Source of the DNA: an uncultured Saprospiraceae bacterium
GTDB taxonomy: Bacteria > Bacteroidota > Bacteroidia > Chitinophagales > Saprospiraceae
Direction of reading: 5' to 3'
DNA: 64,000 bases
NCBI GenBank assembly: GCA_937942435.1
Contig: CALDEM010000007.1
Span: 1 to 64,000 of the forward strand
Below are positions 1-3,392 of the stretch, piece after piece. A model generated the notes under the pieces. It was not told where the DNA came from. It saw nothing but the letters and a program-made list of their open reading frames with translations, and did no database searches. Position numbers and translations under genes: made by a program. The number at the start of each line of letters is the position of its first letter. Position 1 is the stretch's first letter.

Positions 1-2
1 AG

Positions 3-122
3 TTTCCTGATAAGATGCACCAATGGATCAAACAGGAAATAGAGTACTTTTCGACCGACTTCTTTATAGTCCATAAGAGGCTGCAAGATATGGCATTATA
101 TACTGGAGACGGTGTGTTATAG
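3..122 (+). CDS. C-terminal end of an unidentified protein (partial)
   Basis: The window opens inside a gene. Frame 3 is open from base 3 for 39 codons and stops with TAG at 120-122; the other two forward frames stop early. The tail is hydrophilic with several aromatic residues and contains HQWIKQEIEYF and FFIVHKRLQDMALY. I do not recognise the family from this fragment. It is followed 22 bases later by a strong terminator hairpin, which supports this being a real gene end. Confidence 0.5.
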   Translation, partial: FPDKMHQWIKQEIEYFSTDFFIVHKRLQDMALYTGDGVL

Positions 123-140
123 TGAATAATAGCACCTAAA

Positions 141-294
141 AAAAGGGCGATACATGAAGTATCGCCCCCGTCTTTTTGGTCAACATTATTACCTTCTCAG
201 GTGTAACAAATTGACCAATATGGATCTAATGATGAAAACGTATTGTAAAGAAAGAGCTAATAACACATATATCCAAATTTATAATGTAAAATAA
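141..294 (+). repeat. Left arm of a ~155-bp imperfect inverted repeat
   Basis: This stretch reads, in reverse complement, as 1234-1388, with roughly 80% identity by eye and only small gaps. Shared blocks are the GGGCGATAC hairpin, CCCCCGTCTTTTTGG, ATTACCTTCTCAGGTGTAA, GGATCTAATGATGAAAACG and ATAATGTAAAATAA. Within the arm TTGGTCAA (176-183) can pair with TTGACCAA (211-218), so it may fold further. The region 123-351 holds no gene; this repeat and the terminator explain most of it. Confidence 0.85.
145..177 (+). terminator. Intrinsic terminator after the partial first gene
   Basis: A 9-bp perfect stem (GGGCGATAC at 145-153, GTATCGCCC at 159-167, loop ATGAA) is followed by CCGTCTTTTT. It sits 22 bases after the stop of the partial gene. 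The same hairpin recurs in reverse orientation at 1359-1382, as part of the large inverted repeat. Confidence 0.75.
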
Positions 295-351
295 AGTCTA
301 ATATGATCAAGGAGAAAAACATGCATTTGTAAAGAATATGCACTCTTACAT

Positions 352-382
352 CTTGCGTAGAAGGTCGGAAAGCATATCTTTG
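352..382 (+). promoter_or_regulatory. Bacteroidota-type promoter of the tRNA-Ser/tRNA-Pro unit
   Basis: An exact TAnnTTTG -7 box (TATCTTTG, 375-382) lies 19 bases after a TTG at 353-355, the usual -33/-7 spacing in this phylum. Predicted transcription start is near 388, about 45 bases before tRNA-Ser. The next terminator downstream is after tRNA-Pro, so both tRNAs probably share one transcript. Confidence 0.6.
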
Positions 383-431
383 CAGGCCGATATGAGAAAG
401 CCTCATATCTAGCTCGATTAAGAGCTCACTA

Positions 432-518
432 GGTGAGGTGGGTGAGTGGCTTAAACCGCATGTTTGCTAAACATGTGAACGGGAGACTGTTCCGGGGGTT
501 CGAATCCCCCTCTCACCG
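432..518 (+). tRNA. tRNA-Ser (anticodon GCU)
   Basis: The 87-nt gene folds as a class II tRNA. The acceptor GGTGAGG pairs with TCTCACC, including one G-U pair. The anticodon stem is CATGT/ACATG with loop TTGCTAA, giving anticodon GCU, which reads AGC and AGU. A long variable arm and the T-arm with GTTCGAATC are present. The discriminator base is G, as expected for serine. Confidence 0.93.
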
Positions 519-567
519 CATCTAAGAATTAATATTGAAGGAGTTTTAATAAAAAACAACTTCTACT

Positions 568-642
568 CGGGGCGTAGCGCAGTCCGGTTAGCGCACCTGT
601 TTTGGGAACAGGGGGTCGCAGGTTCGAATCCTGCCGCCCCGA
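568..642 (+). tRNA. tRNA-Pro (anticodon UGG), complete copy
   Basis: The 75-nt cloverleaf has acceptor CGGGGCG/CGCCCCG, anticodon stem CCTGT/ACAGG with loop TTTGGGA (anticodon UGG), and a T-loop with GTTCGAATC. The discriminator is A. From its nucleotide 21 (base 588, in the D-loop) to base 692 the sequence is repeated exactly at 1023-1127. The functional tRNA may therefore be a hybrid of an original 5' part and a 3' part delivered by the GIY-YIG cassette. Confidence 0.93.
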
Positions 643-692
643 CTACAAAAAGACTTATCACTTGTGATAGGTCTTTTTTAGTTTTAGGTGAT
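588..692 (+). repeat. 105-bp exact direct repeat, copy 1 (tRNA-Pro 3' part plus terminator)
   Basis: Bases 588-692 are identical to 1023-1127, offset 435. The repeat starts in the D-loop of tRNA-Pro (TTAGCGCACCTG) and runs through the anticodon arm, T-arm, 3' acceptor strand and terminator to GGTGAT. The two copies bracket the GIY-YIG gene and its trailing stem-loops. Confidence 0.95.
647..678 (+). terminator. Terminator of tRNA-Pro
   Basis: A 14-bp stem (647-660 with 665-678, one G-U pair, loop CTTG) contains its own U tract at the 3' side (GGTCTTTTT). It begins five bases after the tRNA. An identical copy follows the headless tRNA-Pro at 1082-1113. Confidence 0.8.
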
Positions 693-710
693 CAATCAAC
701 AGTACTTATA

Positions 711-956
711 GTGTTTCAGGTCTATATCCTTTATTCTGAAGTTCATGATAAATTCTATGTCGGGCAGACAAGTGATATAACGGATAGGCTAGATAGACAT
801 AACGCAGGAAGAGTAACCTCAACTAAGCACTTTAGGCCTTGGATCTTGAAAATTCAGATCAATAAGAACACTAGATCTGAAGCTGTAAAGCTTGAGTCAA
901 AACTTAAAAACCTCTCGAAACTCCGTTTGAACAAATTCATTCAAAAGTATTCTTAA
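711..956 (+). CDS. Small GIY-YIG nuclease, tRNA-associated
   Basis: The 81-residue protein is a stand-alone GIY-YIG catalytic domain. The GIY motif is VYIL (residues 4-7) and YIG is YVG (16-18), with a downstream arginine in DRLDRH and a glutamate in EAVKLESKL, the usual catalytic set. It resembles the short YhbQ/SLX1-like nucleases that are common next to tRNA genes in Bacteroidota. The start is GTG at 711; no upstream in-frame ATG exists, and the frame runs open back through the tRNA terminator. The only room for a promoter is within the repeat or the 18 bases after it. Its position between two copies of a tRNA 3' end suggests a role in its own insertion or maintenance; that role is inferred. 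Confidence 0.85.
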   Translation: MFQVYILYSEVHDKFYVGQTSDITDRLDRHNAGRVTSTKHFRPWILKIQINKNTRSEAVKLESKLKNLSKLRLNKFIQKYS

Positions 957-966
957 TATGTCCGGC

Positions 967-1023
967 CCTGACGAAGCTAAAGCTTGTCAGGATGCTGATA
1001 CATGCTGTGCATGTCGTCAGCAT
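967..1023 (+). repeat. Two tandem stem-loops at the cassette's right end
   Basis: Hairpin 1 (967-991) pairs CCTGACGAAGCT with AGCTTGTCAGG around an AA loop, with one bulged G. Hairpin 2 (992-1023) pairs ATGCTGA with TCAGCAT and then ACATGC with GCATGT around TGT. The base of hairpin 2 lands exactly on the first base of the repeated tRNA segment (1023). No U tract follows, so these do not look like terminators; they may be structural ends of a mobile unit. Confidence 0.7.
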
Positions 1024-1077
1024 TAGCGCACCTGTTTTGGGAACAGGGGGTCGCAGGTTCGAATCCTGCCGCCCCGA
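1023..1077 (+). pseudogene. Headless second copy of tRNA-Pro (3' two-thirds only)
   Basis: Bases 1023-1077 repeat tRNA-Pro from the D-loop to the discriminator base, including the UGG anticodon arm, but the 5' acceptor strand and D-stem are absent and replaced by hairpin 2. It cannot fold as a tRNA. The identical terminator follows at 1082-1113, and the 105-bp repeat ends at 1127. Confidence 0.9.
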
Positions 1078-1127
1078 CTACAAAAAGACTTATCACTTGT
1101 GATAGGTCTTTTTTAGTTTTAGGTGAT

Positions 1128-1430
1128 GGTAGTTGAGCTTGATCAAGAATATGCCATAAAGGCTCATCTAGTACGCTCTCAACCTATACAAACTCTTATA
1201 ACACCATAAATCTCTTATCTAACATATGATAAGTTATTTTACATTATAAGTTTGGATATGTATAATATAAACATTTTCTTTACCGAACGTTTTCATCATT
1301 AGATCCATTGGTCAATTTTTTACACCTGAGAAGGTAATATGATTGGCCAAAAAGACGGGGGCGATATCTTTCGGTATCGCCCTTTTTTATCCCAACCGAC
1401 GGATCCTATTGTACTTTATTACGCTACTAA
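1128..1430. other. Gene-free stretch with the right inverted-repeat arm and a two-way terminator
   Basis: Bases 1234-1388 are the reverse complement of 141-294. The hairpin GGGCGATA/TATCGCCC (1359-1366, 1375-1382) is followed by TTTTTT on the + strand and by CCGTCTTTTT on the - strand, so it may stop transcription from both sides. Bases 1128-1233 show nothing recognisable. No clear TAnnTTTG box was found before the creatininase gene at 1431. Confidence 0.75.
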
Positions 1431-2195
1431 ATGACGCGGAGACCATATATCTTATCAGAATGTACTTGGGCAGAGATTAAAAGTCGAGATATTGAGCTTG
1501 CGATTCTCCCATGGGGCGCATGTGAAGCGCATAATTATCACATGCCATATGGCACCGATATCTATGAAGCGGATTACATAGCCGCAGAGGCTGGTAAAAA
1601 AGCCTATCAAAAAGATCAGCGTTTTATAGTTCTACCTACTATACCTTTTGGAGTAAATACCGGTCAGATGGATATCAAGCTTGATATGAATATCTATCCG
1701 ACTACTCAGATGGCCATCTTAAGTGATACGATTGAAGTCCTTGGTAATCACGGGATCAATAAAATGTTAGTGCTCAACAGTCATGGCGGAAACAACTTCA
1801 AGCCTCTTCTGAGAGAGCTTGGAGCACAAGCACCACATATGTTCCTTTCATTTTGTGATTGGTTCAAGTCTGTTGACAAATACGACTACTTTGAAGAAAA
1901 AGGAGATCATGCTGATGAGATGGAGACTTCTGTTATGATGCATCTATACCCTGAGTGGATAGATCTACAATCAGCAGGACCCGGAGATGCTAAGTCCTCA
2001 GTTGTCTCAGGTATTAATGAAGGGTGGGCATGGGCAGAAAGAAGATGGTCATTGGTAAGTGAGGATACAGGTATAGGTGATCCTTCAAAATCGACAGCAG
2101 AAAAAGGAGCAAAATTTTTAAATGATACAACAGACAAGGTTGCGGACTTATTAGTAGAGTTATGTAATCTCGATCAATCTAAAATGTACATCTAA
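1431..2195 (+). CDS. Creatininase family amidohydrolase
   Basis: The 254-residue length is normal for the creatininase family, metal-dependent amidohydrolases that cleave cyclic or formamide-type amides. The metal-binding set is visible: E32 and H34 in GACEAHNYHMP, D43 in GTD, NSHGGNN near residue 117, and DHADEMETS near 160, where the glutamate is usually catalytic. No signal peptide is present, so it is cytoplasmic. It is followed after 16 bases by an exosortase gene, and the two probably share a transcript. The substrate cannot be read from sequence; true creatinine hydrolysis, riboflavin-type amidase and peptide-modification roles are all known in the family. Confidence 0.85.
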   Translation: MTRRPYILSECTWAEIKSRDIELAILPWGACEAHNYHMPYGTDIYEADYIAAEAGKKAYQKDQRFIVLPTIPFGVNTGQMDIKLDMNIYPTTQMAILSDTIEVLGNHGINKMLVLNSHGGNNFKPLLRELGAQAPHMFLSFCDWFKSVDKYDYFEEKGDHADEMETSVMMHLYPEWIDLQSAGPGDAKSSVVSGINEGWAWAERRWSLVSEDTGIGDPSKSTAEKGAKFLNDTTDKVADLLVELCNLDQSKMYI

Positions 2196-2211
2196 CAATC
2201 ATACTTGTCGC

Positions 2212-2793
2212 ATGGCTAAGAAAAAGAAAGGGAGCAAAAAAAATACTAAAGCCAGTAAATCAGTCCAAACAAGCGAATGGAATGAAAGAAAACCAGTTCT
2301 AATATTTGCAGGAAGTTTTCTTTTGATATGTCTGGGTTTTTACTTGATCACCAACATGGTTTGGTTCAGTTCATTTAGAGCACCAATCTTATCAGTATAT
2401 TCTGGTGTTTCAGCATTCCTCCTTAACATCCTTGGGTATGGCGTGACAGCTACTGGAGAGTTACTTTCGTCAAATGCCTTTTCTGTAAGTATAGAAGAAG
2501 GTTGTGATGCGATTGCTCCGGCGATATTATATGCGGTGTCCGTTTCGATATTTCCAATTGCATGGCAAGCTCGATGGAAAGGACTTCTCTTTGGCCTCCT
2601 AGCAATTTTTATCCTTAACATAATTAGAATAGTAACACTCTTCCTTACAGGCATCCACGTTCCGTCTCTTTTTGATTTTATGCATGTTGATTTTTGGCAA
2701 GCTATTTTTATAGTCTTCACAGTTGGGATATGGATCTATTGGATGAGATGGGCTTCTAATATTACGCAATCTGCAATAACAAAGGCATCATGA
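2212..2793 (+). CDS. Exosortase/archaeosortase family membrane transpeptidase
   Basis: The 193-residue protein has a lysine-rich N-terminus and several membrane helices. It has the exosortase catalytic triad: Cys98 in EEGCDAIAP, Arg139 in NIIRIV, and His158 in MHVDFW. Exosortases cleave C-terminal sorting tails of exported proteins at the membrane, often in step with exopolysaccharide production. Which of the Bacteroidota subfamilies it belongs to cannot be settled here. Its stop overlaps the next gene by 4 bases (ATGA), so the two are translationally coupled. No protein with a recognisable exosortase-type C-terminal tail was found in the window. Confidence 0.85.
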   Translation: MAKKKKGSKKNTKASKSVQTSEWNERKPVLIFAGSFLLICLGFYLITNMVWFSSFRAPILSVYSGVSAFLLNILGYGVTATGELLSSNAFSVSIEEGCDAIAPAILYAVSVSIFPIAWQARWKGLLFGLLAIFILNIIRIVTLFLTGIHVPSLFDFMHVDFWQAIFIVFTVGIWIYWMRWASNITQSAITKAS

Positions 2794-3392
2794 AAAATAT
2801 GCCAAATATCTTCAAGTTTCTACTGATCTTCTTAGTAGGATACCTGACTCTTTCGTCATTGTCATATGTGAAATCTGCCCGAAGTGTTGGAGTGCCGATA
2901 TATAACGCTTTCCAACAAATGACTTTAAACATGTTCCATCCAACTGTAAGGACGGACTTTAAAAGTTACGAAGGTCCAGCAGAAGAATTTGATTATTCTA
3001 TATACATATACTCGGCTCAAGAATATAAAATGGCAGCCAATAAGAGAGCTGTGAAACCACATGTAATCTCTAATCAAAACGCAAGGGTAACAGCGTTCGG
3101 GCCATTTATCATGTTGATAGCACTAATCATAGCTTCGCCCATCAGTTGGAAAAGAAAGCTGCTCAGTCTGGCAATTGGTAGTCTTCTTGTATTTATTCTT
3201 TTATCGATGAAGTATACAGCTCTCTTTGATGCTAACATGGATACTCTAAAACCAAGTAGCTCAATATGGCTTTCGATTTCTAACTTGTTTAGCGAGGCTT
3301 TTAGAACACATGAGTTTCTCACATTAATGATCGTCCCTATATGGGCTCTTTCAAGTTTTAGAACAAAAGATTGGAAGTGGTTCTTAGAATAA
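2790..3392 (+). CDS. Membrane protein coupled to the exosortase, function unknown
   Basis: The 200-residue protein has an N-terminal helix (about residues 8-25), a soluble segment of about 75 residues, then helices near 104-118, 125-142 and 172-188. The arrangement suggests one extracytoplasmic loop between helix 1 and a membrane bundle. The start ATG overlaps the exosortase stop, which makes a shared function likely. I do not recognise the family. It ends four bases before the convergent GNAT gene. Confidence 0.7.
   Translation: MKNMPNIFKFLLIFLVGYLTLSSLSYVKSARSVGVPIYNAFQQMTLNMFHPTVRTDFKSYEGPAEEFDYSIYIYSAQEYKMAANKRAVKPHVISNQNARVTAFGPFIMLIALIIASPISWKRKLLSLAIGSLLVFILLSMKYTALFDANMDTLKPSSSIWLSISNLFSEAFRTHEFLTLMIVPIWALSSFRTKDWKWFLE

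Follow-up and report, generated by a model that had tools for sequence, protein, structure and literature searches.

A window of 64,000 nucleotides from an uncultured Saprospiraceae bacterium carries, at positions 588-1022, a unit of 435 bp that sits between a G and the following TT of a tRNA-Pro gene. The tRNA is whole, its old 3' part lies downstream, a hairpin stands flush with the junction, and the corresponding site is empty in a relative. The unit is likely a homing cassette that targets tRNA genes and restores them, in which a tRNA 3' part and a terminator are joined to a small GIY-YIG nuclease gene and terminal hairpins. If so, tRNA genes are host to widespread selfish cassettes of ~400 bp that enter an essential gene while keeping it whole, which would form a bacterial counterpart to the mORFs of fungal mitochondria and give a role to many small stand-alone GIY-YIG genes. 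In Bacteroidota assemblies, cassettes of this type may also account for partial tRNA copies and for contigs that end near tRNAs. The combination of a G^TT site with a 7-bp hairpin provides a directly testable rule for site location by a nuclease that is nearly single-domain.

The locus is defined by an exact repeat of 105 bp (588-692 = 1023-1127, spacing 435 bp), a match that cannot be chance. The repeat starts at nt 21 of the tRNA-Pro, in the D-loop (...CCGG^TTAGCGC), with 568-587 of the tRNA upstream of the junction and 588-643 within the repeat, and it ends 49 nt beyond the tRNA, through a terminator-like hairpin. The features of the locus are as follows:

432..519, plus strand: tRNA-Ser(GCT), neighbour of the tRNA-Pro (ARAGORN)
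568..643, plus strand: tRNA-Pro(TGG), intact, the insertion target (ARAGORN; Rfam, 70.1 bits)
588..692, plus strand: left repeat copy, tRNA-Pro nt 21-76 and terminator, the left end of the 435-bp unit (sequence comparison)
644..692, plus strand: terminator-like hairpin and T-run 3' of the tRNA-Pro, within the repeat (sequence; fold of 640-700, z -4.7)
711..956, plus strand: GIY-YIG nuclease gene, 81 aa, GTG start (PF01541, E 6e-14)
967..991, plus strand: hairpin 1, CCTGAC..GTCAGG (DNA folding)
992..1023, plus strand: hairpin 2, ATGCTGA..TCAGCAT, 7-bp stem with its 3' foot on the right junction (DNA folding; junction test)
1022..1023, no strand: right junction, element end GTCAGCA followed by TTAGCGC, with its left counterpart at 587/588, CCGG^TTAG (junction matching)
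1023..1127, plus strand: right repeat copy, displaced tRNA-Pro nt 21-76 and terminator, without tRNA nt 1-20 (repeat match; Rfam; right flank contiguous with the tRNA-Pro in the relative G001)

The GIY-YIG gene is the sole gene-like frame with a family match between the repeat copies. Repeat comparison, ARAGORN, Pfam and folding all agree with the preliminary description, made from the sequence alone, of an exact 105-bp repeat running from the D-loop to past the terminator and enclosing only this gene and two hairpins. The right copy was said there to lack the 5' part of the tRNA, and nt 1-20 are indeed absent; as a tRNA this copy scores 28.7 bits in Rfam against a cut-off of 29, over model positions 8-63. 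The two hairpins (967-991 and 992-1023) reach -17.4 kcal/mol as DNA (z -5.1), with none of 200 shuffles equally stable. A group I intron was rejected, the tRNA-Pro being contiguous and Rfam, searched over 1-3000 up to E 1, giving no intron family.

Foreign DNA flanked by a duplicated tRNA 3' end could also have been left behind by an ordinary integrase-type element directed at such ends. This origin is very improbable, as the 435-bp unit holds one GIY-YIG gene and no integrase, on which ground an integrase island was likewise rejected. Moreover, spacing and anatomy recur across the surveyed loci, where junctions fall in the D-loop, the anticodon arm or the T-loop and are accompanied by hairpins. 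An assembly artefact might be suspected in a metagenome-like contig, given that the window begins at base 1 of its contig (C7) in a genome of 110 contigs and that identical repeats are prone to misassembly. It is hardly credible, since the same structure is found in the single-contig genomes G333 and G285 (L267, L268, L270, L274, L275) and the window junction follows the rule of its clade, G^TT with an element end in CA.

Two further features lie near the cassette. An inverted repeat of ~190 bp (139-332 / 1196-1388, 74-92% identical in parts) brackets the block of tRNA-Ser, tRNA-Pro and cassette; in G001 and in G005 the locus has a single match to it. Its left arm was considered as a part of the element and set aside, being diverged and without a further copy in the genome. 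Downstream of a creatininase-family gene, 2212-2793 encodes an exosortase-like membrane protein (PF09721, E 1e-6).

Evidence of insertion comes from G001, another species of the window's genus, in which the orthologous place was found through the downstream creatininase gene (91% protein identity). In G001 the tRNA-Ser, the tRNA-Pro, the terminator and the right flank are contiguous and 588-1022 is absent; the window unit is therefore an insertion that left the tRNA-Pro intact. A second empty site is found in G095, of the same genus as G083: the tRNA-Lys cassette of G083 is absent at the orthologous tRNA-Lys there. The corresponding comparison for the tRNA-Asn and tRNA-Phe of G083 gave no tRNA in the five sister loci opened (L328-L331, L333). 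The tRNA-Ser adjoins the tRNA-Pro likewise in the loci of G001, G005, G003 and G004, the last also a member of the window's genus. G005 has a second, decayed tRNA-Pro 3' end with a terminator downstream of the intact tRNA-Pro and no nuclease gene seen (L116); we interpret this as a scar that an earlier insertion left. The preliminary description proposed comparing close strains for an empty tRNA-Pro site; one exists in G001, a species of the same genus. The outcome that it named as contrary to its reading, a gene fixed at this place without variation, is not what is seen, as the site varies between species.

The origin of the tRNA 3' part is a separate matter. Nucleotides 21-76 of the tRNA-Pro do not differ between the two window copies and the empty site of G001. 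The terminators of the two window copies match each other and differ from that of G001; at the tRNA-Lys of G083 both terminators likewise match each other and differ from that of the other species. Because the terminators are paired yet unlike those of relatives at both loci, duplication of the host's own 3' end fits too. In such a target duplication, a smaller unit of gene and hairpins (~693-1022) would enter without a carried tRNA, by staggered nicks at G^TT and past the terminator whose repair would duplicate the host stretch; we regard this account as unlikely. The preliminary description had proposed an insertion that rebuilds the tRNA from a carried 3' part. Entry in the D-loop and a whole tRNA at the left stand (empty sites in G001 and, for Lys, in G095), whereas the unit's own 3' part is not settled by copies that are identical, and a nuclease-driven entry stays putative.

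The protein is widely distributed. Matches to it occur in 55 of 100 relatives, and at E 1e-8 a 14-row profile matches 159 of 247 genomes from the phylum. Represented among the best 80 of 221 named loci are Flavobacterium, Winogradskyella, Chitinophagaceae and Saprospiraceae, together with one Ignavibacteriaceae, one Balneolaceae and two Moranbacteria. The two Moranbacteria loci (L212, L213) have the same anatomy at tRNA-Gln, outside Bacteroidota, which suggests inter-phylum transfer. With tblastn at E 1e-3, the window protein has no match among 50,697 phage and 72,556 plasmid records, and a phage or plasmid vehicle was rejected on this basis. Viral contigs gave no match with query A2 and three weak ones with query A1, two of which hold a full gene without an adjoining tRNA piece.

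The association with tRNA genes was examined in two sets. The first, of 191 distinct full-length genes, consists of the hits in 100 relatives (all but ~7 of the listed places) and the best 80 of 221 named loci; L003, L004, the viral L150-L152 and 36 partial matches are excluded, and 8 duplicates among 199 full matches were removed. The fresh set comprises 28 automatic loci and 60 hand-picked regions from places matched by the 14-row profile, with the cut-offs of the first set; 84 of the 88 loci gave a full gene, and L239 (G000) and L262 (G079) were dropped. Among the 191 genes, 119 have tRNA pieces on both sides (both of one isotype in 116), 50 on one side and 22 none near; restricted to the 145 genes that have room on either side, the counts are 92, 37 and 16, respectively. 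In the fresh sample 92 of 114 genes are two-sided (87 of these with one isotype), 18 one-sided and 4 without a piece, the search for pieces having no null of its own and isotype agreement serving as its check. For the 130 of 191 genes (fresh, 78 of 114) with an intact tRNA no more than 300 nt away, the nearest such tRNA shares the strand of the gene without exception. Both surveys bear out the earlier statement that small GIY-YIG genes beside tRNAs are common in Bacteroidota, and far from never occurring with a duplicated tRNA end, as the contrary outcome would have it, these genes usually have a second tRNA piece.

Gene-free tRNAs were examined in the window's genome, which has 27 tRNAs. Both of the gene-bearing ones (Pro and Leu-TAA) have second copies, and 5 of the other 25 show short or decayed copies within 500 nt (two Arg, Val-GAC, Cys and, weakly, Ser-TGA), which we read as scars. 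The Gly and Thr tRNAs of this genome match each other, as neighbours.

Several loci of the same genome deserve separate mention. That of the tRNA-Leu(TAA) (L002) is its second cassette, with a downstream tRNA copy in which TCCCGA..TCGGGA hairpins apparently replace the anticodon arm and the T-arm. Beside the intact tRNA-Val(GAC) lie decayed tRNA pieces, with no nuclease gene seen, apparently the scar of a lost cassette (L131). At the tRNA-Arg genes TCT (L126) and TCG (L138) the last 17 nt of the tRNA are repeated downstream, in two copies and one copy, respectively; the units of L126 measure ~170 bp, a nuclease gene was found in neither locus, and both resemble non-autonomous cassettes.

The position of the junction follows a rule within the window's clade, which comprises 44 rows (support 99/98) of a nuclease tree built on 86 columns, many of whose forks are open. 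In 14 of 19 loci of this clade, across six isotypes, the remnant starts exactly at the first T of the T-loop, with four others at most 3 nt away and the window 35 nt away. Junction tests are limited to loci with an exact 18-nt 3' anchor (48 of 191; fresh, 23 of 114), and by such exact matching all 14 testable junctions of the clade read G^TT; the window's lies in the D-loop, the other 13 in the T-loop. The element ends in CA at 13 of the 14 and in TA at one. In other clades, junctions are located at nt 36, 44-46, 51 or elsewhere.

The displaced remnant usually begins at the 3' foot of a hairpin, a feature that is new here. At 34 of the 48 exact junctions a perfect stem of 5 bp or more terminates at that point (33 with at least 6 bp), as against 151 of 1920 in-gene positions (at least 6 bp: 51) and 126 of 1920 shuffles (at least 6 bp: 22), and 14 of the 48 have no flush hairpin. 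The test was devised on the first set and repeated unchanged on the fresh one, where 19 of 23 junctions have a flush stem of at least 5 bp (17 with at least 6 bp) and the two controls give 72 of 920 (at least 6 bp: 22) and 46 of 920 (at least 6 bp: 15). Typical element ends are TCCCGC..GCGGGA and TCCCGAT..ATCGGGA, and those of the window's clade TGCTGAC..GTCAGCA or TGGCGAG..CTCGCCA. The junction hairpin is probably either a recognition feature of the nuclease or a mark of the occupied copy.

Some of these palindromes are dispersed. For CCTGCC..GGCAGG, the palindrome of the Arg cassettes, G079, G004 and G068 yield 57, 37 and 25 forward matches, nested matches included, and the reversed control gives 0 in each. 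G034 and G029 yield 16 and 14 (controls 1 and 7), and the remaining four genomes, among them G000, yield 0-3. Each of the hairpin types of the window itself has three matches within the window, against 0.9 and 1.4 expected, and these types were rejected as a dispersed repeat, clear enrichment within the window not being found. A bolder proposal, which we advance tentatively as possible but clearly short of likely, is that the cassettes move by hairpin-guided single-strand cutting and constitute a new class of bacterial mobile element. The protein would read the terminal palindrome and matching single-stranded tRNA DNA, and units would accumulate in the manner of integrons, keep the tRNA whole and also spread dispersed palindromes.

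Cassettes exist in two orientations relative to the complete tRNA. The common form, to which the window belongs, has the complete tRNA upstream and a downstream copy without the 5' part (67 versus 21 mirror forms; fresh, 48 versus 11). In the mirror, or 5'-end, form the upstream tRNA is truncated or disrupted and the complete tRNA lies 3' of the gene; in many of the loci listed, the stop codon of the gene falls inside that downstream tRNA. Of 41 mirror-form cassettes, 36 have a stem of 6 bp or more in the 130 nt 5' of the gene (28 have 7 bp or more), versus 205 of 796 flank segments (63 with 7 bp or more), about seven of the best stems being A+T-rich or otherwise not of this type.

Units also occur in arrays. 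Four follow one tRNA-Pro in Flavobacterium sp. LHD-85 (L192), and the single-contig genome G333 has five equally spaced copies. Degenerate gene copies are distal to the intact tRNA in all 9 scored cases, L226 being doubtful; L166, outside the scoring rule, shows the opposite trend, with a truncated gene copy nearest the tRNA. At L267 of G333 five matches recur at intervals of 450 bp, with one TAA in the matched stretch of each, possibly an inactive amplified array. Tandem arrays are what local amplification without mobility would produce, the nuclease cutting the neighbouring tRNA and recombination making tandem copies while the gene stays put, much as SegB drives amplification of tRNA and segB in phage T6 (PMC13096335). 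We consider this improbable for the cassettes: the order tRNA-gene-tRNA-gene would be expected, yet no gene follows the window's last piece; the empty sites and the many isotypes require movement; and the junction hairpin is not predicted.

In the protein the Pfam match spans residues 2-71 of 81, leaving scant room for another domain. Residues Y5, Y16, G18, R26, H30 and E62, which we take to be catalytic, are conserved at 97-100%, and dN/dS is 0.05-0.27 in the 12 pairs, out of 14, with computable dS, the pairs being hand-chosen and sharing lineages. Outside the window's clade the tRNA isotype tracks the nuclease tree (35 changes over 120 rows; shuffled mean 82, minimum 72), while within it, where ten isotypes are occupied, isotype hardly tracks the tree at all (21 changes over 35 rows; shuffled mean 24, minimum 21). 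This weak fit counts against the cassette model, because a carried 3' part would mismatch the acceptor stem of a new isotype, and it favours target duplication, as a self-carried 3' part leaves it unexplained. Among the top 70 pairs listed, the closest cassettes are mostly at the same isotype.

The extent of the repeat bears on the same question. Among 46 loci with a repeat at least 95% identical, 27 show it continuing beyond the tRNA end by more than 5 nt, as target duplication would have it. In the other 19, of which 9 belong to the window's clade, identity ends within 5 nt of the tRNA end, as if the upstream 3' part were foreign. Also against target duplication, 13 of the 27 run-ons reach the gene start since another unit or piece follows, and repeat lengths vary from 15 to 105 bp. 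Judged by sequence, the 19 loci would fit a 3' part from another genome, and the 27, the window included, a same-species donor, gene conversion or target duplication.

For the homing cassette, which remains the preferred reading, the mechanism would begin with a nuclease that cuts or nicks unoccupied tRNA genes at the G^TT site. Host recombination would then copy the cassette in, using the tRNA sequence on both sides as homology, and re-invasion of the restored tRNA would build arrays: with its target restored the cell survives and stays open to new invasion. Counting against homing are the 22 of 191 genes without a tRNA piece, the partial copies at 5 of 25 gene-free tRNAs, the 14 of 48 junctions without a hairpin and the order seen at L166. 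The model does not explain how the rebuilt tRNA-Pro escapes recutting, since nt 21-76 are the same in both copies and the empty site, nor how the site is chosen, as the 81-aa protein has little beyond its GIY-YIG domain. The junction hairpin, the G^TT rule, the mirror-image cassettes and the fungal mitochondrial precedent are additions to the preliminary description.

Several known systems share features with the cassettes. The Ssn enzymes are small stand-alone GIY-YIG site-specific nucleases that act on single-stranded DNA only and are tied to repeats dispersed in the genome, namely dRS3-like repeats. We know of no tRNA insertion associated with Ssn. The Neisseria dRS3 repeat, ATTCCC(N8)GGGAAT (PMC3898611), resembles the TCCCG..CGGGA hairpins of the cassettes. 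Hairpin-marked ends, arrays of small units and dispersed palindromes are found among integrons, REP/RAYT and IS200/IS605 elements. These differ from the window unit, which has neither an integrase nor a Y1 transposase and whose sole enzyme is a GIY-YIG nuclease. In the accessible text of a GIY-YIG superfamily survey tRNA is mentioned three times, with none of these mentions on gene neighbourhood (PMC1564403), and bacterial tRNA cassettes of this kind are described in none of the titles and abstracts listed from the open literature.

SegB is a free-standing GIY-YIG homing endonuclease of T-even phages that lies beside tRNAs, cuts in tRNA genes and amplifies tRNA and gene in tandem (PMC13096335). 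By our reading, its motif RAWTSGAAC (PMC13096335) is the reverse complement of the T-loop consensus GTTCGAATC, and the T-loop is the site of 13 of the 14 exact junctions in the window's clade, the window's own lying in the D-loop. Unlike the cassettes, SegB is a phage gene for which the accessible text of PMC13096335 describes no restored and displaced tRNA structure, and the window protein is unmatched in the 50,697 phage records. The mORFs of fungal mitochondria, known from atp6 of Allomyces and from atp6, atp9, cox2 and nad3 of Glomus (PMC3630166), are endonuclease genes that sit in a host gene along with a second copy of its end. The expressed form is the upstream hybrid, the native end lies displaced downstream, and ORF-less relatives exist (PMC3630166). 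The window likewise has an endonuclease gene between two copies of a host-gene end, a complete tRNA-Pro upstream and ORF-less alleles (Pro, Lys). In mORFs the inserted end is foreign and the displaced end is like that of relatives, whereas the window copies are identical; 19 of the 46 loci do lose identity at the tRNA end. Furthermore, mORFs reside in organelle protein genes and encode LAGLIDADG enzymes, with a GIY-YIG enzyme in atp9 of Glomus (PMC3630166), while the cassettes occupy bacterial tRNA genes of many isotypes, measure ~435 bp and possess a junction hairpin. The nearest known kinds are the fungal mitochondrial mORFs and the phage SegB.
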